Shown here: one piece after another, positions 1,184 to 45,521 of the stretch
Numbering within the stretch: the first letter of the stretch is position 1
Layout of the letters: the number at the start of each line of letters is the position of its first letter
Source: Lacinutrix mariniflava
GTDB taxonomy: Bacteria > Bacteroidota > Bacteroidia > Flavobacteriales > Flavobacteriaceae
NCBI RefSeq assembly: GCF_001418015.1
Contig: NZ_LIQG01000032.1
Location: 248,001 to 312,000, forward strand
DNA: 64,000 nt
Direction of reading: 5' to 3'
Translations under genes and position numbers: made by a program
The notes under the pieces: model-generated
Told to the model about the DNA's origin: nothing
The model's input: the letters and a program-made list of their open reading frames with translations, nothing else
Database searches by the model: none

Positions 1184-1199
1184 TTTTCTTGTTTTATCG

Positions 1200-1275
1200 C
1201 ACTTGACTTTGTCGAAAAAATAGTCGAACTTCGTTTAACGTATGATATAAAACATTGAAACGGTTTCATATTAAA
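1200..1275 (+). repeat. Accessory leader repeat, copy 1 (TTGACTTTGTC...TTCGTTTAACGT)
   Basis: Contains CTTGACTTTGTC, then TTCGTTTAACGT at 1230-1241, then TGATATAAAACATTGAAACG. The same order of blocks recurs at 14955, 16260, 38370 and 39240, each time upstream of a small orphan gene or gene pair. It may carry a promoter or be a recombination boundary; the sequence alone does not decide. Confidence 0.7.
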
Positions 1276-2309: not shown

Positions 2310-2432
2310 CACAACCACGTATATAAAAAATAGCAGTTAAGTGTTAAACTCAAAATTTAATTCTTTTCTGCTATTTTTGCTTTAAACCGAAAAAAGCACA
2401 TATAAATCTGCTACTTTCTATATACAATCACG
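2310..2432 (+). repeat. Imperfect palindrome after the DUF6705-like gene (cassette-end type A)
   Basis: Outer arms GTATATAAAAAATAGCAG (2319-2336) and CTGCTACTTTCTATATAC (2408-2425) are reverse complements at 16 of 18 positions. The element starts about 10 bases after a stop codon, as do the related elements at 16090 and 18418. A half copy (ATATAAAAAATAGCA) lies after the gene ending at 27701. Confidence 0.65.
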
Positions 2433-2545
2433 TTCTTGTTGATTGCTTCGCTTCGCGCTAAACAAGAACGTTAGGCTATAAGTCATTTTTTGAAATTTAA
2501 AAATACTTCGTATATTCAAATTTCAAAAAACAACTCATAGCCGCT
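2430..2545. repeat. Two further hairpins in the 2301-2671 gap
   Basis: GTTCTTGTT ... AACAAGAAC (about 2433-2470) encloses a second small palindrome. GGCTATAAGT with TTTTTTGAAATTT pairs with AAATTTCAAAAAA and ACTCATAGCC (about 2473-2543). No gene is visible in this gap; it holds stacked secondary structure between two converging transcription units. Confidence 0.55.
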
Positions 2546-14930: not shown

Positions 14931-14954
14931 ACCACCTTTCGAGGTGGTTTTTTT
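14931..14954 (+). terminator. Terminator ACCACCTTTCGAGGTGGT + T7
   Basis: Stem ACCACCT/AGGTGGT with a short loop and a seven-T run, after htpG. Nearly the same hairpin recurs at 16236, 18561, 30129, 37632 and 38251. Confidence 0.85.
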
Positions 14955-15038
14955 ATGCTTGACTTTGTCATTTTTTTAGGCTAACTTCGTTTAACGTCTG
15001 ATTTATAACATTGAAACGATTTTGTGTCAACGAAATAT
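14933..15038 (+). repeat. 106-bp direct repeat, left copy (terminator + leader repeat)
   Basis: From CACCTTTCGAGGTGG through TTGACTTTGTC and TTCGTTTAACGT (14986-14997) to TGTGTCAACGAAATAT. It is almost identical in sequence and equal in length to 16236-16341. The pair brackets the DUF6624 lipoprotein gene. Confidence 0.85.
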
Positions 15039-15069
15039 TGACATTCATTAACACCATACCAAGAAACCT

Positions 15070-16083
15070 ATGAAAAACATTTTAATTTTAGTATTACTAA
15101 TAATATTTTCGTCTTGTAAAAACGGAGAAAAAAATGAAGAAAATATCGTAGAGAAAACACCTACTTCAGAAGAAAGAGCAAAATATGCTGAATTGAAAAG
15201 TCAAGCTTGGAAACTTTATGAAAACGAAAACTATTTAGAATCAGCAAAGAAATATTCAGAGGCATTTACAACTCTTGGTAATAAGGGAAATACATCTGAT
15301 AGATATAATGCTGCTTGTTCTTGGGCTTTAGCAAATCAAATTGATTCATCATTTGTTCAATTATTCAGAATTGCAGAAAAAGGTAATTATAAAAATTATG
15401 CGCATATAACAACAGATAGCGATTTATCTAGGCTACATTCTGATAAAAGATGGAATGAAGTTTTAGATTTAGTCAAAAGCAATAAAGAAAAAGCAGAAGA
15501 AGATTTAGATAAACCTTTAGTTGCAATCCTTGATACAATATATCAAGAAGATCAAGGATTAAGAAGACAAATTAACGAGGTTGAGGAAAAATATGGTAGA
15601 GATTCGGACGAAATGAAAGCTCATTGGAAAACCATAAACGAAAAAGACTCTATCAATCTCATAAAAATACAAAAGATACTTGACGAAAGAGGTTGGCTCG
15701 GTCAAGACATAATTGGAGGACAAGGAAATTCGACATTATTTTTAGTCATTCAACATTCACAGATAGAAATACAGGAAAAGTATTTACCAATGATGAGAGA
15801 AGCAGTTAAGAAAAATAATGCACGCCCAAGTAGTTTAGCATTATTAGAAGACAGAGTATCTTTAAGAACTGGAAAAAGACAAATTTACGGTAGTCAAATT
15901 GGGAGAAACCAAGAATCAGGTGAATTTTATGTCTCACCAATCGAAAATCCTGAAAAAGTTGATGAAAGAAGAGCCGAAGTCGGACTTGGTACTTTACAAG
16001 AATATATATCAAATTGGAATATAACTTGGGATGTAGAAAAACATAAGGAAATGACTGCAAAATTCGAGGCTGAAAAAAAATAA
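15070..16083 (+). CDS. Lipoprotein with helical-repeat region and DUF6624 domain
   Basis: A 337-residue secreted lipoprotein: signal peptide with lipobox IIFSSC (Cys16), an N-terminal TPR-like part (about 30-130, WKLYENENYLESAKKYSEAF; RYNAACSWALAN), then a DUF6624-type domain (about 150-290) with LDERGWLGQDIIGGQGN, FLVIQHS, LPMMREA and LLEDRVSLRTGKRQIYGSQIGR. The function of DUF6624 is unknown. Start ATG at 15070. The gene sits alone between two copies of a 106-bp repeat and is followed 6 bases after its stop by a 136-bp palindrome, so it forms one unit of the repeat-bounded island. Confidence 0.8.
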   Translation: MKNILILVLLIIFSSCKNGEKNEENIVEKTPTSEERAKYAELKSQAWKLYENENYLESAKKYSEAFTTLGNKGNTSDRYNAACSWALANQIDSSFVQLFRIAEKGNYKNYAHITTDSDLSRLHSDKRWNEVLDLVKSNKEKAEEDLDKPLVAILDTIYQEDQGLRRQINEVEEKYGRDSDEMKAHWKTINEKDSINLIKIQKILDERGWLGQDIIGGQGNSTLFLVIQHSQIEIQEKYLPMMREAVKKNNARPSSLALLEDRVSLRTGKRQIYGSQIGRNQESGEFYVSPIENPEKVDERRAEVGLGTLQEYISNWNITWDVEKHKEMTAKFEAEKK

Positions 16084-16089
16084 CGAAAT

Positions 16090-16225
16090 GCCAACACCGT
16101 ATATAATTTATTGCTGGCTTCTTGCTTACTTGCGAAAGTCCTCACAGACTTTCTTGGTCGGTAATTATTTACTAAAATAGATGCTTAAAACACACAACAA
16201 ACCATATACAACAACGTTAAACGAA
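16090..16225 (+). repeat. Imperfect palindrome ending ACGTTAAACGAA (cassette-end type B, copy 1)
   Basis: Begins GCCAACACCGTATATAATTT and ends at 16214-16225 with ACGTTAAACGAA. Outer arms GTATAT.../...ATATAC pair imperfectly. The centre is a perfect hairpin GAAAGTC-ctcaca-GACTTTC (16134-16153). Sister elements: 18418-18551 and 39995-40115. Confidence 0.8.
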
Positions 16226-16235
16226 AATAAAAAAA

Positions 16236-16341
16236 CACCTTTCGAGGTGGTTTTTTTATGCTTGACTTTGTCATTTTTTTAGCATAACTTCGTTTAACGT
16301 CTGATATAAAACATTGAAACGATTTTGTGTCAACGAAATAT
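16236..16341 (+). repeat. 106-bp direct repeat, right copy
   Basis: Terminator CACCTTTCGAGGTGG with T7, TTGACTTTGTC, TTCGTTTAACGT (16289-16300), TGATATAAAACATTGAAACG and TGTGTCAACGAAATAT. It forms the leader of the effector gene. With the ACGTTAAACGAA box at 16214-16225 it makes a 12-bp perfect inverted repeat around a terminator. Confidence 0.85.
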
Positions 16342-16401
16342 AAGGCAATATTATACTCACTCAATCGGCGAAACGAAACGGATAAAAAAAAGAATAAAAA
16401 C

Positions 16402-18066
16402 ATGAGTTTCAAAGCAGTACTAATTATTAACGACGAAAGGCGAGTAATACTCAATGCAAGTCAATTCTTTTCAAGGTATTTTGACACAAATGGAAAACCT
16501 ACAACAAAACCAATTGGTGGAAAATTAATGTTTTCAATAGAATCTACAGTAGAAGACAGTTTCTTTTACGAAAATATGTTTTCACCAACAGACAAGTGTA
16601 AAGGAGAAATTATATTTTATAAACGAGATGGTTTAAGTGTACTTTTTAAAATAGAATTTGCTAACGCACAAATTCTAAATTTATCAGAACATTTTGATGC
16701 TAAAAATAATCTCCCTTTACATATGAATATTGAAATTGGTTGGGGAATTGCAAGAATAAGAGGAGTTGTTTTCGAAGAATCTTGGAATCCAAATAATCCG
16801 TTTATTGAAATTGAACCAACAATACGTGAAGAAGAAGAAGAAGAAGAAGAAGAAAACGATGAATTTGGAATTAGCATAAAACACATAGCAGATAAAAAAA
16901 CATTTGTTCCACTTGGTGTTCCTGCGTTTTCGGGAACTCCCGAAAACAAAAATATAGAATTTGAAATAGAAATTACAGAAAATGATATTGACGATTTTCA
17001 AGTAGAGTTTCTACACAATAACAAAGTTATACAAACCTATTATTCAAGAAAACAAACTCTAGATGAAGTAGTTGTAACAGCAAAAGGCTCTGGGAATTCT
17101 TCAAACTCTAATACTACAGATAATGAAAACGAGCAAAGTAATTATCCAAAAGGTAAATATAAATTAGAATGGGACGGTTTTGATAGTAATGGTATTTACC
17201 ACAACACTAATTTTATATCAGGAAAATTCAAAGCACGTGTAAAAGGTAGTAAAAATGGAAATGAAAAAACCGCAGAAAGTACAGAGTTCTCTTTTAAATA
17301 TAAAGAAGTAAATTGGGTAGATGCTAAGATTGACAAAAACAATAAACGTATTGATATTACACTTCGTGTAAACCTAAAAGATGGTGGTGCTAAAGGTTTA
17401 AGAAATTGGAATAAAATTCCAAAGAAAGATTTAACCTCAAAAGAACCCATAAAAACAAGAACAAAAAGTTTTGAAGATTTAGAAAAATTAGCAATAGATG
17501 GTTTAAACTATCATTGGGGAAGAAATAAAAATCATTACATTGCTAAAAATGTAGATATTAATGGAGAAGTTTATGAAATATTTATTAATACAATAAACAC
17601 CACAGAAAATGTAATGGATGATGTAAGTTTAATATTTAATACTAATAGAAAATGGATGCGTTCTGGGAATCCAGGAACCGTTGAAGACCCTATTTCAGCT
17701 GTTGGAAATCTTATTTCAAGAGAAGCAGTATGTTATAATGTTGGATATCTTAAGTATTCCAATGGTTGGGGTTATCAAAATAGTAATGACGAGAATATCG
17801 AGTTTAAATTTACTTCTGCTCACGAAATTGGGCATACAATTTTAAAAGCTTATGGTGGCACTTTCTATTCTTATGGTCATAAAGGAAGTGTTAACACAAT
17901 AACTCAAAAAATGAAATCTGATGCCTCTAATTATCCTGCTGATGAAGAGATTGACATAATGCCTTATTACCCAATAAGTCCACCTCCACATCTTTATAAT
18001 AGATATATTGCTTCTGAAAAAGACGTTTTAAGTCTAATTTGGTTAACTAAAATAACGAAAGAATGA
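16402..18066 (+). CDS. TssD (Hcp-like)-metallopeptidase fusion, predicted type VI secretion effector
   Basis: A 554-residue protein. The start at 16402 is chosen because MSFKAVLIIN is the canonical TssD beginning; a GTG at 16327 would add 25 unlike residues from inside the repeat. Domains: (1) residues 1-120 resemble TssD, the Bacteroidota T6SS tube protein (FDTNGKPTTKPIGGKL, SIESTVEDSFFYENM, EIIFYKRD); (2) a linker with nine Glu (143-151); (3) a beta-rich middle region (about 155-345, GKYKLEWDGFDSNGIY); (4) a C-terminal zinc-peptidase-like domain with His474-Glu-Ile-Gly-His478, His493 in SYGHKGS, and DIMPYY as a possible Met-turn. I infer an effector delivered as part of the Hcp tube. The next gene overlaps by 4 bases and encodes a lipoprotein, a probable immunity protein. 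No other T6SS gene is in the window. Confidence 0.8.
   Translation: MSFKAVLIINDERRVILNASQFFSRYFDTNGKPTTKPIGGKLMFSIESTVEDSFFYENMFSPTDKCKGEIIFYKRDGLSVLFKIEFANAQILNLSEHFDAKNNLPLHMNIEIGWGIARIRGVVFEESWNPNNPFIEIEPTIREEEEEEEEENDEFGISIKHIADKKTFVPLGVPAFSGTPENKNIEFEIEITENDIDDFQVEFLHNNKVIQTYYSRKQTLDEVVVTAKGSGNSSNSNTTDNENEQSNYPKGKYKLEWDGFDSNGIYHNTNFISGKFKARVKGSKNGNEKTAESTEFSFKYKEVNWVDAKIDKNNKRIDITLRVNLKDGGAKGLRNWNKIPKKDLTSKEPIKTRTKSFEDLEKLAIDGLNYHWGRNKNHYIAKNVDINGEVYEIFINTINTTENVMDDVSLIFNTNRKWMRSGNPGTVEDPISAVGNLISREAVCYNVGYLKYSNGWGYQNSNDENIEFKFTSAHEIGHTILKAYGGTFYSYGHKGSVNTITQKMKSDASNYPADEEIDIMPYYPISPPPHLYNRYIASEKDVLSLIWLTKITKE
16828..16854 (+). repeat. (GAA)9 in the effector linker
   Basis: Nine consecutive GAA codons encode Glu143-Glu151 between the TssD-like domain and the middle domain. 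Slippage would change linker length in frame. Confidence 0.9.
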
Positions 18067-18413
18067 AACTAATAAAACTTCTATTTCTTATTTTTTTAAT
18101 ATCTTCTTGCTCAAATAAGATATCATATTATCAAGGCTATATCTATAAAAATAATATGCCTCTAGAAAACATAAAGGTTGTGGCAAGAGATCATCCCGAC
18201 ACTATATCTATAACTAACGAAAAAGGTTATTTTAAATTAAATAAACGAGCTACTTGGATAGAAAAATATTTATATCTTTATTCTAAAAACAAAAAAATTG
18301 ATTCTATATCTATTATAAGAACGCATCCAGAATATGGAGTGAAATATTATTTTATTGAAGGTAGAAATGATACTCTATTTCTAAAGATTAATAATAACGT
18401 AATAAAAAAATAA
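18063..18413 (+). CDS. Small lipoprotein, predicted immunity partner of the TssD fusion
   Basis: A 116-residue lipoprotein: signal MKLIKLLFLIFLISSCSNK with lipobox ISSC (Cys16), then a short beta-sandwich-like region (YYQGYIYKNNMPLENIKVV...TNEKGYFKLNKR) that looks like a trimmed CarboxypepD-regulatory fold. The ATG overlaps the stop of the upstream effector gene (ATGA), so translation is coupled. A periplasm-facing lipoprotein made with a metallopeptidase effector fits an immunity protein that shields the cell envelope compartment; this role is inferred from order and topology, not from a recognised family. A 134-bp palindrome follows 5 bases after the stop. Confidence 0.7.
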   Translation: MKLIKLLFLIFLISSCSNKISYYQGYIYKNNMPLENIKVVARDHPDTISITNEKGYFKLNKRATWIEKYLYLYSKNKKIDSISIIRTHPEYGVKYYFIEGRNDTLFLKINNNVIKK

Positions 18414-18417
18414 CGTT

Positions 18418-18551
18418 GCCTAACCTCGTATAATTTATTGCTAGTTCTAGCCTGCTTACGAAAGTCTAAACGGACTTTCTTAGTTAGGATTTATTTATTA
18501 AATTAGTTGCTTAATACACGCAACAAACAAGATACAACAACGTTAAACGAA
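18418..18551 (+). repeat. Imperfect palindrome ending ACGTTAAACGAA (cassette-end type B, copy 2)
   Basis: Begins GCCTAACCTCGTATAATTT and ends ACGTTAAACGAA (18540-18551). Central perfect hairpin GAAAGTC-taaacg-GACTTTC (18460-18479): the stem is the same as in copy 1 while the loop differs. The first seven bases GCCTAAC fit the integron box RYYYAAC, and GTTAAAC near the end fits GTTRRRY. Confidence 0.8.
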
Positions 18552-18560
18552 ATTTCAAAA

Positions 18561-18582
18561 ACCACCTTTCAAGGTGGTTTTT
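18561..18582 (+). terminator. Terminator ACCACCTTTCAAGGTGGT + T7
   Basis: Closes the effector/immunity unit. It is followed by a partial leader repeat (TTGACTTTATT, TTCGTTTAA at 18618-18626) before the Imm53-like gene. Confidence 0.85.
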
Positions 18583-18699
18583 TTATACTTGACTTTATTA
18601 TCTTTTTTTAAGCTAATTTCGTTTAAAATTATTTTACATTTATTCTTTAACAGCTAAGCCTAAAACTAGCTTAAATAATATCAAAACAACTTAATACAA

Positions 18700-23101: not shown

Positions 23102-26100
23102 ATGAAAATTAAAAAGGTTCTTGTTGCCAACAGAGGAGAAATTGCTATTCGCGTTTTACGTGCGTGTACAGAGTTAAATATAACTACTGTTGCTATTTAT
23201 ACTTACGAAGACCGTTATTCTCAACACAGAAATAAAGCCGATGAATCTTACCAAATTGGAGAAGACAATCAGCCTTTAAAACCCTATTTAGACATTGCTC
23301 AAATTATAGATTTGGCAAAAGCTAAAAACGTAGATGCCATACATCCTGGTTATGGTTTTCTATCCGAAAACTCTGAGTTTGCAAGACAATGTGCTGCAAA
23401 CGGTATTATTTTTATAGGCCCAGAACCCGAAGTTATGGATGCTTTAGGCGATAAAATTACAGCTAAAAAAGTAGCCGTAAAATGTAACGTTCCTATTATA
23501 GAAAGTAACAAGAAAAAATTAACCTCACTTAAAGTCGCTTTATCTCAAGCGGCAACTATTGGCTATCCATTAATGCTAAAAGCCGCCTCTGGTGGTGGTG
23601 GTCGTGGTATGCGAATTATTAGAAAAGATGAGGATTTAGAATTCAATTTCGATTCTGCAAGAAACGAAGCCTTAAATGCCTTTGGAGACGACACCATGTT
23701 TTTAGAAAAATATGTAGAAAATCCAAAACATATAGAAGTACAAATTGTAGCAGATAATCATGGTAATATTCGTCATTTACACGAGCGCGATTGCTCTGTA
23801 CAACGTCGTCACCAAAAAGTAGTAGAAATTGCACCATCGCATAATGTAAGCGATTCTGTAAAACAAGATTTATACAAATACGCCGTTGCCATTGCAAAAG
23901 AGGTAAACTACAATAATATTGGTACCGTAGAATTTTTAGTAGATGGAGACGATAATATCTACTTTATAGAAGTTAATCCAAGAATACAAGTAGAACATAC
24001 CGTCACCGAAATGGTAACAGGAATAGATTTAGTAAAAACACAAATTTTTGTTGCTGGTAATTACGCATTAGACAGTCAGCAAATAAAAATATACGGTCAA
24101 GATACTATTGCAACCTATGGGTTTGCACTACAGTGTCGCTTAACAACCGAAGATCCTTCAAATAACTTCACGCCAGATTATGGTAACGTAACCACGTATA
24201 GAAGCGCCTCCGGAATGGGCATTCGTTTAGATGCTGGAAGCATTTATCAAGGCTACCAAGTGAGCCCGTTTTTCGATTCTATGCTAGTAAAAGTATCTTC
24301 TCATGGTAGAACTTTAGATGGCGCAACACGTAAAATGGTGCGTGCTCTAAAGGAGTTTAGAATTAGAGGTGTAAAAACCAATATTCATTTTTTACAAAAT
24401 GTCATTCAGCATCCAACATTTAAAGATGGTAAGGTCACTGTTAATTTTATTCAGAATACTCCTGCCCTATTTAAAATTAAACTTCCGCAAGATAGAACCT
24501 CTAAAGTGGTTAATTTTTTAGCTGAAGTCACCGTTAACGGAAATTCGGACGTAAAAAACATTGAAGACAATAAAGTCTTTAGAAACCCTAAAGTTCCAAA
24601 GTTCAGTTTATCTGAAGCCTATCCAAAAGGCACAAAAGATATGCTAACAGAATTAGGTCCAGAAAAATTCTGTGCTTGGTTAAAAGACGAGAAAAAAATT
24701 CATTTTACAGATACTACAATGCGCGATGCGCACCAATCGTTATTAGCAACCAGAATGCGTTCTTTCGATATGCTTAAGGTAGCCGAAAGCTTCGCGAAAA
24801 ACCATCCAAACACCTTTAGTATGGAAGTTTGGGGAGGTGCAACTTTCGATGTTTGCTTACGTTTCCTGCACGAAAGTCCCTGGACACGTTTAAGAGAATT
24901 GCGTAAAGCAGTACCAAATATATTATTCCAAATGTTATTGCGTGGCTCTAACGGTGTTGGTTACAAAGCGTACCCAGATAATTTAATCGAGAAATTTGTA
25001 GAAAAATCTTGGGAGAATGGTGTCGATATTTTCAGAATTTTCGATTCCCTAAACTGGGTAAAAGCCATGGAGCCAAGCATTAGTTATGTACGCAATAAAA
25101 CTGGCGGAATTGCAGAAGCAGCATTAAGTTACACTGGCGATATTTTAGACGTAAACGAAACAAAATACAATCTAAAATATTACACACAACTGGCTAAAGA
25201 TTTAGAAAACGCAGGTGCACATATGATTGCTATTAAAGACATGGCAGGATTATTAAAACCGTATGCAGCAACAGAATTAGTTGCAGCATTAAAAGATACT
25301 GTAAAGGTGCCAATACACTTACACACACACGACACCTCTTCATTACAAACAGCAACGTATTTAAAAGCTATTGAAGCCGGTGTAGATGTTGTAGACGTAG
25401 CATTAAGTGGTTTATCTGGTTTAACCTCGCAACCTAATTTTAATGCGGTTGTAGAAATGATGAAAGGCCAACCAAGAGCAAACGATTTCGATATGCCTAA
25501 ACTAAATCAGTTTTCTAATTTTTGGGAAGATACACGCGAACTGTATTATCCGTTCGAGTCTGGTTTAAAAGCAGGAACTGCTGAGGTTTTCGAACACGAA
25601 ATTCCTGGCGGACAATATAGTAATTTGCGTCCGCAAGCCACTGCTTTAGGTTTAGCAGATAGATTTGATGAGGTTAAAAAAATGTATGCCGCAGTTAATA
25701 AACTCTTTGGTAATTTGGTAAAAGTAACACCAAGCTCGAAAGTGGTTGGAGACATGGCCATTTTTATGGTTACTAATAATTTAACGACAGAAGATGTTAT
25801 GGAGCGTGGCGAAGAAATTTCGTTTCCAGATTCTGTAATTAGTTTCTTTGTTGGAGATTTAGGTCAACCATCTGGTGGTTTCCCAAAAAAGCTTCAGAAA
25901 ATAATTCTAAAAAACAGAAAACCATACACAAACAGACCAAACGCACATTTAGAACCTATAGATTTTGATGAAGAGTTTAAAGCTTTCAAAAAGAAATTCC
26001 AAAAAGGCTTTACTCGTGCTATCGAAATGGAAGATTTCTTATCGTACACCTTATACCCAAAAGTATTTGAGCAAGCGCACGAAAACTATAAAACCTATGG

Positions 26101-26554
26101 TAATTTAGCTTTAGTACCAACAAAAAACTTTTTCTATGGCATGAAACTTCGCGAGGAGATTTTAATAGAATTAGAACCTGGAAAAACCGTTATTATTAAA
26201 TTACTATCTATTGGTATTCCTAATGAAGAAGGTATGAGAACCGTCTTTTTTAAAGTTAATGGCGAAAATCGTTTTGTTGAAATTTTAGACAAATCTCTAA
26301 ACATTAAAATTGAAACCAATACCAAAATAGATCCGGCAGACACTAACCAAATTGGAGCACCTTTACAAGGTTCGCTTTATAAAGTATTGGTTAAAAAAGG
26401 ACAGGAAGTAAAAGAAAACGATCCGCTTTTTATTATCGAAGCCATGAAAATGGAAACAACGGTAACTGCCTTTAAATCTGGAACAGTAAAATCGGTGAGC
26501 CTAAAAGAAGGTAATATGGTAAAACAGGACGATTTAATTGTGACTATAGAGTAG
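23102..26554 (+). CDS. pyc: Pyruvate carboxylase
   Basis: A full-length 1150-residue biotin enzyme that carboxylates pyruvate to oxaloacetate for anaplerosis. Domains: biotin carboxylase (1-455; KVLVANRGEIAIRV, ATP-grasp loop AASGGGGRGMRII, IEVNPRIQVEHTVTE), carboxyltransferase TIM barrel (about 530-800; FTDTTMRDAHQSLLATRMR, metal-site HLHTHDTSS), PYC-OADA linker domain (about 825-1020), and the C-terminal biotinyl domain with Lys1116 in EAMKMETT. Start ATG at 23102. Probably in an operon with the unknown gene at 22027. A terminator lies at 26640. Confidence 0.97.
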   Translation: MKIKKVLVANRGEIAIRVLRACTELNITTVAIYTYEDRYSQHRNKADESYQIGEDNQPLKPYLDIAQIIDLAKAKNVDAIHPGYGFLSENSEFARQCAANGIIFIGPEPEVMDALGDKITAKKVAVKCNVPIIESNKKKLTSLKVALSQAATIGYPLMLKAASGGGGRGMRIIRKDEDLEFNFDSARNEALNAFGDDTMFLEKYVENPKHIEVQIVADNHGNIRHLHERDCSVQRRHQKVVEIAPSHNVSDSVKQDLYKYAVAIAKEVNYNNIGTVEFLVDGDDNIYFIEVNPRIQVEHTVTEMVTGIDLVKTQIFVAGNYALDSQQIKIYGQDTIATYGFALQCRLTTEDPSNNFTPDYGNVTTYRSASGMGIRLDAGSIYQGYQVSPFFDSMLVKVSSHGRTLDGATRKMVRALKEFRIRGVKTNIHFLQNVIQHPTFKDGKVTVNFIQNTPALFKIKLPQDRTSKVVNFLAEVTVNGNSDVKNIEDNKVFRNPKVPKFSLSEAYPKGTKDMLTELGPEKFCAWLKDEKKIHFTDTTMRDAHQSLLATRMRSFDMLKVAESFAKNHPNTFSMEVWGGATFDVCLRFLHESPWTRLRELRKAVPNILFQMLLRGSNGVGYKAYPDNLIEKFVEKSWENGVDIFRIFDSLNWVKAMEPSISYVRNKTGGIAEAALSYTGDILDVNETKYNLKYYTQLAKDLENAGAHMIAIKDMAGLLKPYAATELVAALKDTVKVPIHLHTHDTSSLQTATYLKAIEAGVDVVDVALSGLSGLTSQPNFNAVVEMMKGQPRANDFDMPKLNQFSNFWEDTRELYYPFESGLKAGTAEVFEHEIPGGQYSNLRPQATALGLADRFDEVKKMYAAVNKLFGNLVKVTPSSKVVGDMAIFMVTNNLTTEDVMERGEEISFPDSVISFFVGDLGQPSGGFPKKLQKIILKNRKPYTNRPNAHLEPIDFDEEFKAFKKKFQKGFTRAIEMEDFLSYTLYPKVFEQAHENYKTYGNLALVPTKNFFYGMKLREEILIELEPGKTVIIKLLSIGIPNEEGMRTVFFKVNGENRFVEILDKSLNIKIETNTKIDPADTNQIGAPLQGSLYKVLVKKGQEVKENDPLFIIEAMKMETTVTAFKSGTVKSVSLKEGNMVKQDDLIVTIE

Positions 26555-26637
26555 TATTTTTTTAATTAAGAATAGAACTGCAAAACAAGACTGTCATTCA
26601 GAACGAAGCAAAGAATCTCTAAATAACAAACACTAAA

Positions 26638-26662
26638 AACCGCCTAAATCAGGTGGTTTTTT
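26638..26662 (+). terminator. Terminator after pyruvate carboxylase
   Basis: AAACCGCCT pairs with AGGTGGTTTTTT (with G-T wobble). It lies just after a partial copy of the TGTCATT-type interspersed repeat (about 26592-26620). Confidence 0.75.
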
Positions 26663-26737
26663 GTTTTTATAAACAATACTAAAAACCTTATAACAAGTAT
26701 AATATAAATTTCTTACATTTATAAAAACTAACCAAAC

Positions 26738-35350: not shown

Positions 35351-37555
35351 ATGACTATCAATAACCTACAAAAGACCAACGAAGTCCACGTACTTCTAAG
35401 CAACGCCTATTCTGGGCGTACATCTAATCTGCTCGAAAGTATCGTGCTTGCAAAAAAGGCACTTTCAATAAGTAAATTTTTAGAGAACAAATCTTTAATT
35501 GGAAAAAGCTTAAACCAGCTTTCTCTGTATTATATGATTAATAGCGACTTTAAAAAATCTAAGATACATTCTCAAGAAGCAATTATCTACTTTAAAGCTA
35601 TAGGAGATGAACGAGGTGTAGCAGACGCAAAGTACACTATTGGTAGTATTAATTATAAAACCGATAATTATCACCAAGGTTTAATTCACTTAAAAGAATC
35701 GCTTAGGCTATACAAGAAATTTGCTGATTTCGAAAGTCAGTCTAAGGTAGAAAAAGCTATTGGAGCTATCTACGAGTATATTGGTGACCAAGAAAATGCA
35801 TTTTCATCGTATAAATGCGCTGTAAGAAATGCTAGGAAGGTCAAAAATCTTAATTTAGAATCTAATGCATTCAATAATCTATCAGGTTTATTATTAAAAA
35901 AACAGAAACCTAGTATTGCAATGAAAATGATAGCGTACGCTATTAAATTAAAAAAGCAAACAGGAGATACTCGAGGACTTGCTTTTGCTATTTATGGGCG
36001 CGGAAAAATTTATCTTAAATTAGGTGAATTTAAAAATGCTGAAATCGATTTTTTAGACGCTATAGACATACATAATAAGTTTGTTGAAATTATAGGAGCT
36101 TGCATGAGTTATAATAAACTAGGCCAAGTTTATTATGAAGCTAAACAACTCAAGAAGGCAAAAAAAGCAGTAAAAGAAGGCTTAAAACTATCCCATTCTT
36201 ATAATATTTTAATGTCTACAATAAAAGGATACCTATTAATGTATCGTATTTATAAAGGTCAAGACAATATACCTAAAGCATTTAAATACATAGAATTATA
36301 CCTTGAAAAGAAAGAGGCTGTAATGGACAAGCAAACACAACAAGTTATGGAAAACTATAACTTAATTAATAAAATGAATGTGTTAGAAAGTGATGCTTTG
36401 CTGCAAAAAGAAAGACAAAAAATTATAAACAAAAAAAATCAAGATAAATTAAAAGCTGTAAAAGTAAAGCAAGAATTCTTATCTGTAATGAGCCATGAGA
36501 TTAGAACACCTTTAAATGCCATTACAACTATAGTTTCTATACTTGACGATCAATTACAAGGCGAAAACAAATCGTTAATAAACAGTCTACAATTCGCATC
36601 AGATAATCTTATTAATATTGTTAATAATGTTCTCGATTATACTAAGCTCGATTCTAAAAAAGAATCGTTAGAATTACAAAGTACGAACCTGTTTAATCTT
36701 TCTACTAAAATTCTAAATTTGCATCTTAATATCGCAAAAACAAAAAACTTAAAATTAGCTTTAGATAATAACATTCCAAATAACAGAAATTACCTTTTAG
36801 ACCAAACTAAACTCTCTCAAATACTTAATAACCTTATTGCAAATGCCATAAAGTTTACAGATAAAGGTGAGGTAAACTTTAACTTAAAACTAATAAAAGA
36901 AGATCCCGAATTCGATACCATAAAAATTAGCATAAAGGATACAGGCGAAGGCATTACCGCTTTAGATGTAAAAAAAATATTTTTAAGTTTTTCGCAAATT
37001 AGACCTGTAATGACACGTAAGCAAGGTGGAACCGGATTAGGTTTAGCTATTGTTAAAAAACTTATCGAGCTACATGATAGTAAAATTCAAGTAAAGAGTA
37101 AAATCCAAGAAGGCTCTGAGTTTTATTTTACGCTTAAACTTAAAAAATCGTCTGGCACTTTAATAGAAGCCAAACCAGTTTACCTTCAACTAACAAACAA
37201 AACAGTGTTATTGGCAGAAGATACAATCATGAATGCCATACTTATTAAAAAAGTCCTTTCTAAATGGGGAGTTACAACAGAGCACGTAGTAAATGGCAAG
37301 CTTGCAGTAGAAGCCTCTAAAAAGAAAAAGTACGATTATATTTTAATGGATTTACACATGCCTGAATTAAATGGTATAGATGCTACGCGATTAATTAGAA
37401 AACCAAATAACTTAAACACAGCAACTCCTATTTTTGCAATAACCGCAGATGTGATGACGTGTCAAAACAGTGAAACTAATCAGCTGTTTAATAAAGTCCT
37501 TTGGAAGCCTATTGAAATCCAGAAACTGTATGCTGCTCTCGCAGAAAAAACATAA
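35351..37555 (+). CDS. TPR-hybrid histidine kinase with receiver domain
   Basis: A 734-residue cytosolic sensor, start ATG at 35351 as set by the promoter. Residues 1-330 hold about six to seven tetratricopeptide repeats (e.g. GVADAKYTIGSINYKTDNYHQ). A coiled coil follows, then HisKA with the phosphorylated His382 in MSHEIRTPLN, an ATPase domain with QILNNLIANAIKF (N box), DTGEGI and GTGLGLAIVKKL, and a C-terminal receiver with phospho-Asp667 in YILMDLHMPE and Lys in LWKPIE. No signal peptide or membrane helix is visible, so it senses an internal cue through the TPRs. No separate regulator gene is adjacent. Confidence 0.93.
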   Translation: MTINNLQKTNEVHVLLSNAYSGRTSNLLESIVLAKKALSISKFLENKSLIGKSLNQLSLYYMINSDFKKSKIHSQEAIIYFKAIGDERGVADAKYTIGSINYKTDNYHQGLIHLKESLRLYKKFADFESQSKVEKAIGAIYEYIGDQENAFSSYKCAVRNARKVKNLNLESNAFNNLSGLLLKKQKPSIAMKMIAYAIKLKKQTGDTRGLAFAIYGRGKIYLKLGEFKNAEIDFLDAIDIHNKFVEIIGACMSYNKLGQVYYEAKQLKKAKKAVKEGLKLSHSYNILMSTIKGYLLMYRIYKGQDNIPKAFKYIELYLEKKEAVMDKQTQQVMENYNLINKMNVLESDALLQKERQKIINKKNQDKLKAVKVKQEFLSVMSHEIRTPLNAITTIVSILDDQLQGENKSLINSLQFASDNLINIVNNVLDYTKLDSKKESLELQSTNLFNLSTKILNLHLNIAKTKNLKLALDNNIPNNRNYLLDQTKLSQILNNLIANAIKFTDKGEVNFNLKLIKEDPEFDTIKISIKDTGEGITALDVKKIFLSFSQIRPVMTRKQGGTGLGLAIVKKLIELHDSKIQVKSKIQEGSEFYFTLKLKKSSGTLIEAKPVYLQLTNKTVLLAEDTIMNAILIKKVLSKWGVTTEHVVNGKLAVEASKKKKYDYILMDLHMPELNGIDATRLIRKPNNLNTATPIFAITADVMTCQNSETNQLFNKVLWKPIEIQKLYAALAEKT

Positions 37556-37631
37556 CCTTCTAATGGAAATAATTAGAACATAAAATTATTAAAACAAACA
37601 AAATCTATTTTTCGCTTCCGCGGAAAGACGA

Positions 37632-37658
37632 AACCACCTTTATATTAGGTGGTTTTTT
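37632..37658 (+). terminator. Terminator after the kinase gene
   Basis: AACCACCT pairs with AGGTGGTT, followed by TTTTT, just after a CGCTTCCGCGGAAA motif (37611-37629). Confidence 0.8.
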
Positions 37659-37782
37659 ATACTTTTATTTTACCTTTACCCATAACTACTAAATAGATTT
37701 TAACAAAAAATCTACATTCGCACTTTAATAATAAACACACTATTATTTTTTTAACCACAAACTAAATATTAAACATCAATTT

Positions 37783-38214
37783 ATGAAAAAAACTACTTTA
37801 TTAATTATGGCAATTACCATTTCTTCTTCATTTTTACTTTCCAGCTGTGGAGTCATGTTTGGAGGTAGTAAATACAATGCCGAAATAGAAGTACAAAATC
37901 ATCCTAATGCAGAAATATATGCCAATGGTGAAAAAATTGGAACTGGAGAAGCCACTAGTGCTTTTAAAAGAAATCAACCATTAAAAATTGAAGTAAAACA
38001 AGAGAATTGCGAATCTAAAACTGAAAATTTCGAAAACAAATTTAGAACAGGAAATTTTATCCTGAGTGCTTTCTCTTTTGGACTAGTTGGTATTGCTGTA
38101 GATTTAGGTACTGGAGCATCCTACAAACCTGACCATAAAAATGATTCTAATATTGAAAAATTATCTGATAAGAATTATAAATTCACAATCGACTACTCCG
38201 AATGTAAGCAATAG
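37783..38214 (+). CDS. Lipoprotein with PEGA-like domain
   Basis: A 143-residue lipoprotein: signal with lipobox LLSSC (Cys22), then CGVMFGGSKYNAEIEVQNHPNAEIYANGEKIGTGEATSAFKR, a PEGA-type beta-hairpin repeat that typically follows a GGSKY stretch in Bacteroidota lipoproteins. A hydrophobic Gly-rich segment (FILSAFSFGLVGIAVDLGTGASY) follows and could insert in or contact a membrane. Function unknown. Start ATG at 37783. A terminator hairpin lies at 38251, then a long direct repeat shared with 39153. Confidence 0.75.
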   Translation: MKKTTLLIMAITISSSFLLSSCGVMFGGSKYNAEIEVQNHPNAEIYANGEKIGTGEATSAFKRNQPLKIEVKQENCESKTENFENKFRTGNFILSAFSFGLVGIAVDLGTGASYKPDHKNDSNIEKLSDKNYKFTIDYSECKQ

Positions 38215-38250
38215 TATCAATCATTACCATTCACTTTTACAAAATATTAA

Positions 38251-38275
38251 ACCACCATTTATGGTGGTTTTTTTA
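38251..38275 (+). terminator. Terminator ACCACCATTTATGGTGGT + T7
   Basis: Eight-base perfect stem and T-run after the PEGA-like lipoprotein gene. Confidence 0.85.
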
Positions 38276-38283
38276 TACCTAAA

Positions 38284-38466
38284 TTTTTGCCTTAACGGAT
38301 AACCATAAAATGTAATAATTAAGTTATTTCACATTAGCAAATCAATGCTTTTTACTTAGTTTACTGCATTTGACTTTGTTAAAAAAAATAGTCGAACTTC
38401 GTTTAACGTAGGACACAAAATACATGTACTGAAATTGATTCAGTATTTAAACGGTTTCATATTAAC
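38284..38466 (+). repeat. About 183-bp direct repeat, left copy (includes leader repeat)
   Basis: Holds AACGGATAACCATAAAA, TAATAATTAAGTTA, TTTTTACTTAGTTTACT, TTGACTTTGTT, TTCGTTTAACGT (38398-38409) and ACTGAAATTGATTCAGTAT, in the same order as at 39153-39336. It fills most of the gap upstream of the gene at 38547. Confidence 0.8.
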
Positions 38467-38546
38467 TACATTGTATTATACTGTATTCCATTGCTCTACA
38501 ATACTAAAAATGAATGATTAACGAGATTTATAAATAACAAAGCTAA

Positions 38547-39044
38547 ATGATTCAAGCCAAACATTGTGATCTATGTGATTACCCTAAAAGGAGTCTAAAA
38601 AACGGATTAACTTGTGGTTTGACTAACAAAAAACCTGATTTCAAAGTTGCTTGTTCTGAAATAAAATTCAGTAATTCATTTAAAGAATATCTACTTGAAT
38701 TATTGAATGAAATTGAACAAGTAAAAAAGAATAAAACATATGTGTATGTTAATTTCACTATACTCGGAATAATTGGTTTAATAATAATATTAGGAAATTA
38801 TTCGCGCTTAAAAGAAAATTTTGAAATGGAATTTAACCATTCAAGTTGGATATATTTTACAGGAACATTATTACTCTATGTAGTTGGATTTCTATTGATA
38901 GCAATGGCTTTCCTAAAGCTAATTCAATATAGAAAAACATTAAACAAACTGAGATCGAACAAAAGAGAAATAGATTTGATTCTTAAAAACTATAACAACG
39001 ATATTGAAACACTATTAAATAGTAAAAACACAAGTTCCAATTAA
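38547..39044 (+). CDS. Two-helix membrane protein with N-terminal cysteine cluster
   Basis: A 165-residue protein. The first 35 residues contain a zinc-ribbon-like set (CDLCDYPKRSLKNGLTCGL...ACSE; Cys7, Cys10, Cys23, Cys36). After a helical spacer come two hydrophobic segments (about 68-85, FTILGIIGLIIILGN; and about 100-122, IYFTGTLLLYVVGFLLIAMAFL), then a basic/coiled tail. I do not recognise the family. The gene lies alone between two copies of a 183-bp repeat, the same layout as the DUF6624 gene at 15070, so it may be an accessory, possibly immunity-like, protein. Confidence 0.6.
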   Translation: MIQAKHCDLCDYPKRSLKNGLTCGLTNKKPDFKVACSEIKFSNSFKEYLLELLNEIEQVKKNKTYVYVNFTILGIIGLIIILGNYSRLKENFEMEFNHSSWIYFTGTLLLYVVGFLLIAMAFLKLIQYRKTLNKLRSNKREIDLILKNYNNDIETLLNSKNTSSN

Positions 39045-39152
39045 AAGCATTCCGGTAATCCGCAACTAAACTATTGCTCAGAATAAAATAGCTTCTTAAA
39101 GCTAAAACTTTTATCGCTTTCGCGGAAAGACGAAACCACCTTTTCATGTCTT

Positions 39153-39336
39153 TAATTTCACGTTTACGGAAAACCGTAAAATTTAATAATTAAGTTAATT
39201 TACATTAGCCAAACAATACTTTTTACTTAGTTTACTACACTTGACTTTGTCAAAAAAACAGTCAAACTTCGTTTAACATATGATATAAAACACTTGTACT
39301 GAAATTGATTCAGTATTGAAACGATTTTATATAAAC
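39153..39336 (+). repeat. About 184-bp direct repeat, right copy (includes leader repeat)
   Basis: Same block order as 38284-38466, with TTACGGAAAACCGTAAAA, TTGACTTTGTC, TTCGTTTAACAT (39268-39279) and ACTGAAATTGATTCAGTAT. It lies in the gap 39045-39463, which otherwise holds only a CGCTTTCGCGGAAA motif (39115-39130) and A+T-rich sequence. Confidence 0.8.
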
Positions 39337-39463
39337 GAAACATTGGCAACAAGGCTGACTCACTCTAATGGTTTAAAATGTATGAAAAACAGAAGACAAA
39401 AATTATTACGAATAAATAGCCCTCAAAATTATTTTTAATAGATTAGTAGAATATAAATCAATT

Positions 39464-39847
39464 ATGAAAACAACAAAAATTATATGCATCATGTTTTTTG
39501 CATTAATAATAAATTCTTGCAACAATGATGATGATAATGGAAACAGTGATTCATTCTGTGTAATAGAAAGAACTTTAAATGAAAGTATAACAGAGAAAAC
39601 AGCTCAACTAATTTACTTAGATTCAAAAAACAAGTATGCTTTAAAGTTTTATCCCAATTCCTCTTCAATTGATGAAGTTACATTTTGTGTGCTTTGTAAT
39701 AAACCTGAGGGAGTAGCAGTTGATGATGCTGTGAAATTTACTGGCGAATTATTTTTTTTTAATTCTAATGAAAACTTTAATCCTCCAATTGGTGGGCTAA
39801 ACTATTATTTTACAAAAATTGAACAAATTCAAAAACTAACCTTTTAA
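39464..39847 (+). CDS. Small lipoprotein of unknown function
   Basis: A 127-residue lipoprotein: MKTTKIICIMFFALIINSC signal with lipidated Cys19, followed by NNDDDNGNSD, an acidic spacer common after the lipid anchor in Bacteroidota. The mature part is beta-rich with a CVLCNK pair and an FTGELFFFNS block, but no family is recognised. Two bases after its stop codon lies the ATG of a frameshifted, truncated secreted-protein gene, so the two were an operon. A leader repeat precedes it at 39153-39336. Confidence 0.65.
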   Translation: MKTTKIICIMFFALIINSCNNDDDNGNSDSFCVIERTLNESITEKTAQLIYLDSKNKYALKFYPNSSSIDEVTFCVLCNKPEGVAVDDAVKFTGELFFFNSNENFNPPIGGLNYYFTKIEQIQKLTF

Positions 39848-39849
39848 TT

Positions 39850-40015
39850 ATGAAAAAAAAATATATTTTTATTACTTGCGTTTTTATTAACGCATAGTAT
39901 TTCAGCACAAATATTATACGATAATGGAGCAATAGATGACTCAAATAACAACTTTACATTAGATGGTAGAAGTTGGGATCATAAAAAAACGTATGCCAAC
40001 AAAGTATATAATTAA
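39850..40015 (+). pseudogene. Frameshifted and truncated secreted-protein gene ending in a repeat element
   Basis: From ATG at 39850 the frame meets a stop after 15 codons. If the A9 run at 39853-39861 is read as A8, a 54-residue product appears with a good signal peptide (MKKNIFLLLAFLLTHSISAQ), then ILYDNGAIDDSNNNFTLDG and RSWDHKKTY, and then ANKVYN and a stop. The last residues come from the palindromic element that starts at 39995, so the gene was cut at the element edge. Slippage on the A-run might still restore the frame. Resembles the N-terminus of a secreted enzyme or adhesin; the rest is lost. Confidence 0.65.
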
Positions 40016-40115
40016 TGGCTGGTTTTAGCTTGCTTACGAAAATCCTCGCGGATTTTATTTGCTAAATTAGGTGCTTAAATATGCAACTAACCATACACAA
40101 ACACATTAAACGAAC
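39995..40115 (+). repeat. Imperfect palindrome (cassette-end type B, copy 3)
   Basis: Starts GCCAACAAAGTATATAATT and ends ACATTAAACGAAC. Central hairpin AAAATC-ctcgcg-GATTTT (40039-40056): both sides of the stem differ from copies 1 and 2 but still pair (AGTC/GACT replaced by AATC/GATT). It lies directly in the end of the truncated gene. Confidence 0.75.
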
Positions 40116-40219
40116 CCTTCCAAAAACCAAAACATTTACAATACTCTTAACACTTCACTCCTACTTTATTAAAAAAAAGATAATTAAATTGTAGCCTACA
40201 AATACCACAATTAATTATC

Positions 40220-43239: not shown

Positions 43240-45468
43240 TTGAAAGACCTATTACTAATAACACCACCTTTTACCCAATTAAACACACCTTATCCTGCGA
43301 CTGCATATTTAAAAGGGTTTTTAAACACTAAGGGCATTTCTGCATTTCAGATGGATTTAGGTATTGAGGTTATCCTGGAATTATTCAGTAAAACAACATT
43401 TAATAAACTTTTCGATTTAGCTATTGAAAACGAAAGTATTTCAACGGAAAATTGCCAACGTATTTACACATTAAAAGACGATTACTTACAACCTTTAGAT
43501 GCTGTAATTCTATTTTTACAAGGCAAAAACCAAACTTTAGCAAGACAAATTTGTACTACAAATTTTCTACCACAAGCTTCTCGTTTCGAGCAATTAGAAG
43601 ATATGGATTGGGCTTTTGGCGAAATGGGAATGCAAGACAAAGCCAAACATTTGGCAACCTTATATCTTGAAGATTTATCCGATTTTATTATAGAATGTAT
43701 CGATCCTAATTTTGGTTTTAGCAGGTATGCAGAACGTTTAGGGCAAAGTGCCAATGCGTTTGATGAGTTATACGATAGCTTGCAAGAAACACCAACATTT
43801 ATAGATACTATTACACTTGCGCTTTTAGAAGATAAACTAAAAGCGGTACAACCAAAACTGGTTTGTTTTTCGGTGCCTTTTCCTGGTAATTTATACAGCG
43901 CCTTTAGGTGTGCACAATTTATTAAAGCTAATTATCCTGAAATTAAAATTGCTATTGGTGGTGGTTTTCCTAATACCGAATTACGACAAGTAACAGATAA
44001 ACGTGTTTTCGATTTCTTCGATTTTATTACGTTGGATGATGGTGAGTTACCAGTAGAATTACTCTATGAAGCAGTCTGCCATTCAGAGCCTTTCGACTGC
44101 GCTCAAGATAAACTCCACGAAAGTATCTCTGAAAACGAATTCAAACGTACTTTCATCCTAGAAAACGATGTCGTTACTTATAAAAACAATACCAAAAGAC
44201 CAGACTACAAACAGCTAGAGGTTGGCACACCAGATTATTCAGATCTGTTATTAGACCAATACGTTTCGGTTATAGAAATTGCCAATCCAATGCACAGTTT
44301 ATGGAGCGATGGCAGATGGAACAAGCTCACAATGGCGCATGGTTGTTATTGGGGAAAATGTACTTTTTGCGATATCTCTTTAGATTATATTAAAATTTAC
44401 GAACCTATTGCTGCTGCACTTTTAGTAGACAGAATGGAACAGTTAATTGAACAAACTGGAGAAAATGGTTTCCATTTTGTAGATGAAGCTGCGCCTCCTG
44501 CTTTAATGAAAGCCTTGGCTTTAGAGATTATAAAACGACAGCTAACAGTTACTTGGTGGACTAACATTAGATTCGAAAAAAACTTTACCCAAGACCTTTG
44601 TTATTTATTAAAAGCATCTGGTTGCATTGCTGTTTCTGGCGGTTTAGAAGTGGCTTCAGATCGACTTTTAAAACTTATAGATAAAGGTGTAACCGTTGAG
44701 CAAGTAGCGCAAGTAACGCGCAATTTTACACAAGCCAACATTATGGTACACTCTTACTTAATGTATGGTTATCCAACACAAACAGAACAAGAAACTATTG
44801 ATAGTTTAGAGATGGTAAGACAGTTGTTTGAATTGGGTATTATACAATCTGGATTCTGGCATCAGTTTGCATTAACAGCACATAGTCCCATTGGTTTAAA
44901 TCCTTCAGAATATGGTATTACACCAAATTACAAATCGATTTCGTTTGCTAATAATGATATTGATTTTACAGATAGTACAGGTATTGATCACAGTTTGTTC
45001 AGCTTCGGATTAAAAAAATCATTATTTAATTTCATGCACGGCATTGGCTTTGACATGGATTTACAAGAATGGTTCGATTTTAGTATTCCGCAAACTTCAA
45101 TTACACCATATTATATTGAAGACTGCCTTAATACCGAGACTACGTTAAGCACAAAGCCTACAGCAAAAATTGTTTGGCTAGGTCATTTACCTCTAGTTGC
45201 AGAACGTACAAAAACTAAAAAAGGATTTACAAATGAGTTACTAGACTTAACGTTTCATGATAAAATAGAACGACTAGAAATCACTTTAAATAAGCCTGAA
45301 GGCGAATGGTTATTAGATCAGCTCGAAATATTAAAACCTACAAATGGTAAGGCGCAATCTTTTTCTGCATTAAAAAAAGACTTTGAAACCCAATTTGAAG
45401 ATTTTGAATTGTTCTGGTTTTCGAAATCAATACAAAAATTAAGAGATTTTGGATTGTTACAATTATAA
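43240..45468 (+). CDS. B12-binding domain radical SAM protein
   Basis: A 742-residue protein with N-terminal cobalamin-binding-like domain (LLLITPPFTQLNTPYPATAYLKGFL; VCFSVPFPGNLYSAFRCAQF; IAIGGGFPNTELRQV) and a radical SAM barrel whose [4Fe-4S] cysteines are Cys369, Cys374 and Cys377 (GCYWGKCTFC, C-x4-C-x2-C), the spacing seen in RiPP-maturation-type radical SAM proteins. The C-terminal 200 residues are unassigned. It would do a radical reaction, perhaps methylation, on an unknown substrate. Start is TTG at 43240. Residues 281-292 (HSEPFDCAQDKL) are encoded by what looks like an interspersed repeat inserted in frame. Confidence 0.82.
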   Translation: MKDLLLITPPFTQLNTPYPATAYLKGFLNTKGISAFQMDLGIEVILELFSKTTFNKLFDLAIENESISTENCQRIYTLKDDYLQPLDAVILFLQGKNQTLARQICTTNFLPQASRFEQLEDMDWAFGEMGMQDKAKHLATLYLEDLSDFIIECIDPNFGFSRYAERLGQSANAFDELYDSLQETPTFIDTITLALLEDKLKAVQPKLVCFSVPFPGNLYSAFRCAQFIKANYPEIKIAIGGGFPNTELRQVTDKRVFDFFDFITLDDGELPVELLYEAVCHSEPFDCAQDKLHESISENEFKRTFILENDVVTYKNNTKRPDYKQLEVGTPDYSDLLLDQYVSVIEIANPMHSLWSDGRWNKLTMAHGCYWGKCTFCDISLDYIKIYEPIAAALLVDRMEQLIEQTGENGFHFVDEAAPPALMKALALEIIKRQLTVTWWTNIRFEKNFTQDLCYLLKASGCIAVSGGLEVASDRLLKLIDKGVTVEQVAQVTRNFTQANIMVHSYLMYGYPTQTEQETIDSLEMVRQLFELGIIQSGFWHQFALTAHSPIGLNPSEYGITPNYKSISFANNDIDFTDSTGIDHSLFSFGLKKSLFNFMHGIGFDMDLQEWFDFSIPQTSITPYYIEDCLNTETTLSTKPTAKIVWLGHLPLVAERTKTKKGFTNELLDLTFHDKIERLEITLNKPEGEWLLDQLEILKPTNGKAQSFSALKKDFETQFEDFELFWFSKSIQKLRDFGLLQL
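44080..44115 (+). repeat. Interspersed repeat inside the radical SAM coding region
   Basis: CATTCAGAGCCTTTCGACTG and CGCTCAAGATAAACT match the style of the intergenic TGTCATTC.../GAGCGCAGTCGAAAGG repeats of flavobacteria, read here in frame. Confidence 0.5.
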
Positions 45469-45506
45469 ATAACACAAGATTAACCTCAATAAAAGGCATT
45501 AAAAAC

Positions 45507-45514
45507 TATCTTTG
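45507..45514 (+). promoter_or_regulatory. -7 box TATCTTTG of the FUSC gene
   Basis: Exact TAnnTTTG match eight bases before ATG 45522, giving a nearly leaderless transcript. Confidence 0.55.
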
Positions 45515-45521
45515 AGTTACT

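Follow-up and report, generated by a model that had tools for sequence, protein, structure and literature searches.

The stretch of Lacinutrix mariniflava DNA analysed here, a window of 64,000 nucleotides (contig NZ_LIQG01000032.1, positions 248,001 to 312,000), contains three gene units, each of which ends in a palindromic element of about 120 bp and is preceded by a second repeat, designated element B, that a preliminary description of the sequence did not mention. Comparison with related genomes makes it very probable that the terminal elements are attC-like sites of mobile cassettes and that they belong to an integron-like system, which would use an XerA-like recombinase and would dock cassettes at B elements as well. 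The preliminary description had read the units as integron cassettes; this holds in its main point, with the amendments that the recombinase found belongs to a family without the IntI insertion and that the units appear to be outposts docked at B, not a stand-alone array. The window would hold at least three such docked cassettes (Table 1).

Sites, cassettes and element B in the window

The relationship noticed earlier is confirmed. The covariance model R1 finds all three sites, with the scores given in Table 1; they were among the 20 copies, taken from this genus, from which it was built. The stems GAAAGTC/GACTTTC and AAAATC/GATTTT, with both strands changed, are present as described, and covariation in the folding lies far above chance. 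Among 103 distinct site sequences 94.0% of the cells pair, both-side changes are seen in 19 of 23 pairs, and cells changed on both sides number 243, compared with 63.5 (s.d. 6.5) after shuffling (0/500 reaching the observed value) and no more than 54 after sliding. The sequences had been aligned by fitting to the covariance model; an independent fold of this alignment retains the outer nine pairs. The bottom strand gives the more stable fold in 111 of the 113 folded sites, which are not independent observations because the sites are related, and this asymmetry matches the bottom-strand preference of IntI described in passages of PMC11023631.

Other claims of the preliminary description were upheld in part. 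Copy 2 has both proposed integron boxes; copies 1 and 3 lack RYYYAAC, and the core of copy 3 is ATT, not GTT. Copies 1 and 2 lie behind plus-strand stop codons (16083 and 18413) as stated, and copy 3, said to cut into a gene, lies behind a decayed reading frame. The genes inside had been called immunity or effector types, which is half right: one cassette carries a TssD/Hcp-domain gene with a lipoprotein-like gene, another encodes a DUF6624 protein, and the Imm53 gene (18700) lies outside the cassettes, in the chromosome. A profile search found no PF00589 recombinase on the window's whole contig, in agreement with the reported lack of an integrase, and no Rfam family was found in the window at gathering scores.

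Element B consists of a terminator, a promoter-like motif recognised by eye (TTGACTTT..TAACTTCG) and a palindrome with core A^TT. The inverted 9-mers TTCGTTTAA and TTAAACGAA are found at B and behind each site. Because it starts with TTAAACGAA and carries TTCGTTTAA ahead of its palindrome, B fits the logic of a cassette itself and may be a promoter cassette of small size that has multiplied. A probe for B matched in 14 of 60 genomes, namely 12 of the 13 of the genus (the window's own included) and two of other genera, with 16 matches in each of two genomes. A tally was made of the 76 matches in five genomes (G000, which is the window's own, G001, G002, G005 and G012), the other nine with matches, among them G006 and G007, standing outside it: 47 matches stop at the core, 15 cross it and are empty, 12 stop earlier and 2 are short. 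In the window's genome, contig C32 has at 50.0–53.3 kb an empty B with three units of B, cassette and site behind it.

Relatives were compared at two places in the window, and at the first of them occupied, empty and alternative states are seen. Behind the gene that ends at 14865, genome G012 (93% identical there) passes directly from window position 15039 to 18543; both cassettes and the intervening B are therefore missing and one B is kept, with the breakpoints at the A^TT and G^TT cores. At the same place, where the window's genome holds two cassettes, G005 holds a different gene with its own site, followed by another B; G002 is without the palindrome, and in the remaining nine relatives the window cassettes are not shared behind this gene. 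At the second place G002 and G005 carry other single cassettes behind a B, and G012 has about 157 bp, without B, instead of 37537–40133. Presence or absence exactly at the element edges, which the preliminary description had anticipated, is thus found at the first place and not at the second in G012. The window cassettes have sites, lack an adjacent integrase and are inserted at a secondary site, as is the case for clusters of attC sites lacking integrases (CALIN) and for attG insertions.

Table 1. Features of the window, numbered from its first nucleotide
Feature	Position	Strand	Remarks
B-like promoter motif and palindrome before weaker fourth unit	1190..1274	+	
Weak attC-like site, fourth unit	2313..2434	+	R1 37.4 bits, E 1.1e-4
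Element B1	14932..15037	+	terminator hairpin 14932-14953, promoter-like TTGACTTT..TAACTTCG, palindrome TTCGTTTAACG..ACGAAATA; core A15037^T15038; recognised from sequence and alignment; empty in G012
Cassette 1	15038..16216	+	starts TTGACATT, ends AATGCCAAC and site up to G of GTT; absent in G012 with the next units; start and end complementary 7/8
Cassette 1 gene, DUF6624 protein, 337 aa	15070..16083	+	Pfam PF20329, 77.9 bits
attC-like site 1	16093..16218	+	R1 127 bits
Element B2	16217..16340	+	start TTAAACGAA, terminator, promoter-like motif, palindrome; core A16340^T16341
Cassette 2	16341..18542	+	starts TAAGGCAA, ends TTGCCTAAC and site; absent in G012, right breakpoint 18542^18543; 7/8 complementary
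Cassette 2 gene	16402..18066	+	N-terminal TssD (Hcp) domain (PF17642, 104.9 bits) and long C-terminal part
Cassette 2 second gene, 116 aa, lipoprotein-like	18063..18413	+	no family above cut-off
attC-like site 2	18422..18544	+	R1 115.7 bits; boxes GCCTAAC 18418-18424, GTTAAAC 18542-18548
Right flank	18543..18640	+	TTAAACGAA, terminator 18562-18584, promoter-like motif of host gene, without palindrome; continuous with the empty site of G012
Element B before third unit, long-loop form	39250..39342	+	core A39342^T39343
Cassette 3	39343..40105	+	gene 39464-39847 (127 aa, lipoprotein-like) and decayed frame from 39851; 6/8 complementary
attC-like site 3	39998..40107	+	core ATT; R1 104.2 bits

The array on contig C20 and the recombinase at its head

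The many copies that the preliminary description expected do exist. A search of the window's genome gave 34 matches behind differing genes. A single strand of contig C20 carries 19 of these (21.9–71.6 kb), and the others, those of the window included, are scattered. Scanned with R1, the same contig has 47 plus-strand sites in 50 kb (21892–72266; E 1e-28 to 0.003), and its minus strand gives four weak matches (E 0.1–0.7) that overlie plus sites and are their reverse. By its sites the array runs in one direction, with some reading frames opposed, and the sites fall into two or more alternating subtypes. Among the array proteins, 14 of 17 have no Pfam family above cut-off and 3 of 10 matched in PADLOC; the products that could be named are an ATPase of the OLD/AriA-like type and a type I methyltransferase, behind which a PtuA-like ATPase is encoded. 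The search for a tyrosine recombinase elsewhere in the genome, suggested earlier, led to a protein of 278 amino acids (aa) encoded at the head of this array (C20:20596–21432). Its gene is divergent, with the ATG 460 bp from the start of the first site. The first cassette begins between the two, at 21532; no frame as long as 70 aa was seen in this cassette, of which the array has two further near-copies.

Integron sites have a divided outer arm, of which one half stands at the end of a cassette and the other at its start. We compared the bases after GTT at the start of each cassette with those before AAC at its end, counting runs of at least five complementary bases. Such runs link the two ends of one cassette in 40 of 47 cases, as opposed to 4/47 for the two sides of the same site and 69/2162 for other pairs, and 0/10,000 permutations reached the observed sum. 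Seven further loci gave 21/33 within cassettes, 2/33 for the same site and 10/144 for other pairs. The borders of the cassettes are therefore fixed at G^TT. Of the seven misses in the array, four are places occupied by an IS110-family element, and the other three contain a short insert that is palindromic. The IS110-family copies are near-identical (near C20 34149–35406, 38731–39988, 51184–52437 and 66659–67916) and encode a 330-aa transposase (one copy tested); all four start with identical bases at the same point at the 3' end of a site. Insertion sequences of the IS1111-attC group are comparable: the element here is of the IS110 type, and its four copies share their start point within the site; its host array, however, is of the Bacteroidota type.

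The region ahead of the recombinase is alike in G000, G007, G009, G011 and G012 up to a GTT and diverges beyond it; judged by comparison alone, this is an attI-like site beside the integrase gene with insertion at GTT. The same junction is seen in plasmids of Flagellimonas marinaquae and Arenibacter algicola, where the recombinase matches at 100% over 272 aa and the upstream stretch is identical up to ...CCAGTAGTT and different from GTT on. In the Flagellimonas plasmid a first stretch with matched borders, from GTTATGCGG (12816) to CCGCATAAC (11655), holds erm(F), oriented against the cassette direction (locus L098), and a second, from GTTGGCATT (11526) to AATGCCAAC (10944), holds a dihydrofolate-reductase-family gene; R1 detects only the second of the two sites, the first having been recognised by eye. 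With erm(F) between cassette borders on a mobilizable plasmid, the system would, if our reading holds, be a candidate path by which resistance genes spread in the phylum and beyond it.

A separate observation concerns FJ012881.1 (35558–44259, locus L265), in which tpnF, a shortened relative of the Flagellimonas plasmid recombinase (47% over 86% of the query), lies ahead of tet(X3), with an attI-like stretch ending in GTT between them. This arrangement hints that tet(X3) may once have been a first cassette; the left border alone fits, and no right cassette border was found.

A scan of named genomes yielded at least 592 relatives of the recombinase, and the best 80 of these were kept as loci; all of their titles other than two (L116 and L140) are Bacteroidota or genera recognised as such. 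Chains of at least four cassette borders, sought without a model, occur at 12 of these 80 loci and at 0/80 reversed controls. The border pattern reads the same on both strands, so that this test is blind to strand. At six loci (L122, L125, L127, L146, L147 and L149) the first border lies 95–107 bp behind the end of the recombinase match, L122 having a chain of three only. Longer relatives (~380 aa, 32–41% identical) have sites in the fetched stretch at 13 of 19 loci, and in 12 of the 13 these lie downstream in the same direction; scanned with R1, 20 XerC/D-like loci had sites at none. The longer recombinases are extended at the N terminus by ~75–110 residues, a part without a Pfam match in the two tested (L125 and L218). 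Sites themselves (R1, E <= 1e-4) are found in 234 of 299 genomes of the family Flavobacteriaceae, 209 of 249 when good ones are considered, with at most 11 sites in any genome row.

As described in parts of PMC9668308 and PMC8138268, an integron integrase is defined by an insertion in the catalytic domain, and the latter also has an integron-like subgroup in which the insertion is incompletely conserved. By alignment and motif spacing, the array recombinase is without this insertion around patch III. The KGxKDR-like and HxLRH motifs are separated by 58–59 residues in it and 9/9 kin (10/10 members of the clade), in the 79 loci scored of the 80 and in 19/19 relatives from the association test, by 100 in IntI1 and in the 19 scored of 20 IntI of the phylum, and by 63–66 in the 13 scored of 20 Xer-like loci, with 65 in a Variovorax recombinase. 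The array recombinase reaches 180.5 bits with the integron integrase model TIGR02249 (cut-off 265), over which cut-off there is no protein in this genome; the closest model is XerA (NF040815), at 206.7 bits, below its cut-off of 220. A first quick tree of 101 rows (including 42 of the 80 loci, 18 of 19 associated loci, 14 of 20 IntI and 13 of 20 Xer loci) and a second of 79 rows, made after removing two long branches and then alternate rows among the 41 left from the 80 loci, place IntI in a separate clade (support 100 and 99.9) and Xer in another (99), with the array-type recombinases outside both. In the first tree the Bacteroidota recombinases are dispersed over several branches; in the second they all fall on the same side of one branch, which has support 86.8. 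Of 395 genomes of the phylum, 105 have a true IntI that exceeds the cut-off; among the 107 genomes listed with a match, one belongs to the same class and none to the same order or family.

These data bear most directly on the possibility that the system is a classical integron, in which a true IntI would act on attC sites and the window units would be its integrase-less cassette cluster. All of the anatomy, including the array, the attI junction, the G^TT core and the R'/R'' logic of the arms, fits such a reading; the enzyme does not, as the model score, the motif spacing and the separate IntI clade each indicate, and we regard it as improbable. The system is well supported as working like an integron, yet it is not of the IntI class, because the insertion is missing and the enzyme fails the IntI model. 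Dimer resolution by Xer was considered too, the genome having other XerC/D-like genes; it is ruled out by the clade placement (14 Xer-like rows form one clade that excludes the array recombinase) together with the site-free XerC/D-like control loci.

Still less probable is that the elements are terminators or extragenic repeats resembling repetitive extragenic palindromes, spread in some other way, with gene content varied by homologous recombination between them. They do fold, follow stop codons and recur in 234 of the 299 genomes, and some duplicated segments take in both flanking repeats. Such an origin would leave unexplained why a cassette start matches its own end, why breakpoints fall at GTT at attI and in two plasmids, and why the sites are linked to one recombinase group and not to XerC/D-like genes. 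The least likely alternative, a transposon-like unit of B, gene and site moved by a transposase through its inverted TTCGTTTAA/TTAAACGAA ends, draws on 9-mers that do exist at B and after each site and is disfavoured by G012, which keeps one whole B without the genes, and by the lack of any transposase family match among the genes of both window cassettes at the first place.

Proposed mechanism and comparison with known integrons

The integron-like reading that we prefer can be put as follows. A cassette would be a stretch that starts with TT and ends with an imperfect hairpin of ~120 bp, its last base being the G of GTT; its outer arms (~10 bp) would be particular to it and complete only in the closed circle. 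The XerA-like tyrosine recombinase, beside the attI-like site at the head of the 50-kb array, would cut at G^TT, most likely joining two sites so that the cassette between them leaves as a circle, and would probably act on the folded bottom strand. The circle could then be inserted at attI, at another site or at the core of B, so that dispersed B elements would also receive circles in trans. As B combines a terminator, a promoter-like motif and a palindromic core, a docked cassette would have its own promoter and insulation from its neighbours. Of this, the anatomy, the covariation, the complementary arms of each cassette, core breakpoints among relatives at one place and at attI, and the link to the recombinase have been shown; the recombinase as agent, the folded strand and the roles of B as promoter and docking site are inferred.

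Several observations weigh against this proposal. R1 matched only 9 of the 80 recombinase loci (22 matches) and 13 of 19 other loci, and border chains do not exceed three at 68 of the 80, a length also reached by 13/80 reversed controls. A Sinorhizobium plasmid recombinase with no known link to such sites likewise has a motif spacing of 58, and neither G003 nor G008 has a recombinase close to this clade, although B elements are present in G003. Many B-probe matches in G006 and G007 stop short of the core, near position 72, and the break in G012 at the second place lies off the core, at 40134 as against 40106, that is 28 bp beyond. The arms of the window cassettes match at 6–7 of 8 positions only, so that these cassettes are old or decayed; cassette 2 is without the second T, and copy 3 has its ATT core. 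Nine docked cassettes set by hand match at 8/8 in three, 7/8 in three, and then at 6, 5 and 3 of 8, the last owing to an uncorrected one-base offset. The 113 folded sites are kin, homologous recombination between 120-bp repeats could account for part of the duplications, and the evidence as a whole is comparative, so that recombination itself is presumed from its apparent products.

The likeness to sedentary chromosomal integrons (IntI, attI, attC) is extensive: a recombinase beside attI, an array that runs in one direction and consists of small genes, most of them without a family, and palindromic sites with cassette-specific outer arms, a G^TT core and a stronger bottom-strand fold. The differences are that the recombinase lacks the IntI insertion and falls outside the IntI clade, that in the sites of ~120 bp the bases after GTT need not fit RRRY, and that in 12 of 13 longer relatives the sites lie downstream in the same direction as the recombinase. 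Integration at attG, reportedly described by Loot and colleagues in 2024, places integron cassettes at secondary sites outside the integron; the secondary site of the present system is a constructed element that occurs repeatedly and includes a terminator and a promoter-like motif. To our knowledge, repeated docking sites equipped in this way are a design not known from elsewhere. The XerA-type model NF040815 is the closest to the enzyme, which differs from that type in being linked to cassette arrays. Treponema integrons have a true IntI, unlike the array recombinase. In the account of them in PMC3607928, where the recombinase genes are named intI, recombinase and cassettes run in the same direction, as they do in 12 of the 13 site-linked ~380-aa relatives.

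For the Bacteroidetes proper, the IntegronFinder 2.0 paper (PMC9024848), in the part concerned, records earlier lone integrases and one complete integron, that of Salinibacter ruber M1, and the open-access literature that we searched (titles and abstract starts, with preprints and most subscription journals outside the scope) gave no description of a system such as this one. Integron surveys seek IntI and known attC models; if our reading is true, a system present in 234 of the 299 sampled genomes falls outside them, and the view, stated in passages of PMC9668308 and PMC8138268, that the IntI insertion is required for cassette recombination becomes testable. We are somewhat inclined to go further and to see here a second integron lineage of the Bacteroidota, common in the class, which would be based on XerA-like recombinases that lack the IntI insertion, might be near the stage that gave rise to IntI, and in one genus would have become distributed, with one recombinase, dozens of terminator-promoter docking sites and a promoter for each gene.

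Remaining features of the window

The two genes of cassette 2 (16402–18413) resemble a type VI secretion effector and immunity pair. The TssD protein is a putative effector, whose C-terminal part matches a metallopeptidase model (PF06114) weakly, at 13.4 bits and below the cut-off, and the lipoprotein-like product would, by inference only, be its putative cognate immunity protein.

A weaker fourth unit, also absent from the preliminary description, extends over ~1190–2434 and comprises the B-like motif with its palindrome, frames at 1307–1657 and 1672–2300 and the site listed in Table 1. Behind it, at 2434–2542, lie two short palindromes, TTCTTGTTGATTGC.. and GGCTATAAG.., which are found together again at three places in the C20 array (24902–25116, 26484–26698 and 45431–45641) and may be very small cassettes or may parasitize the sites.

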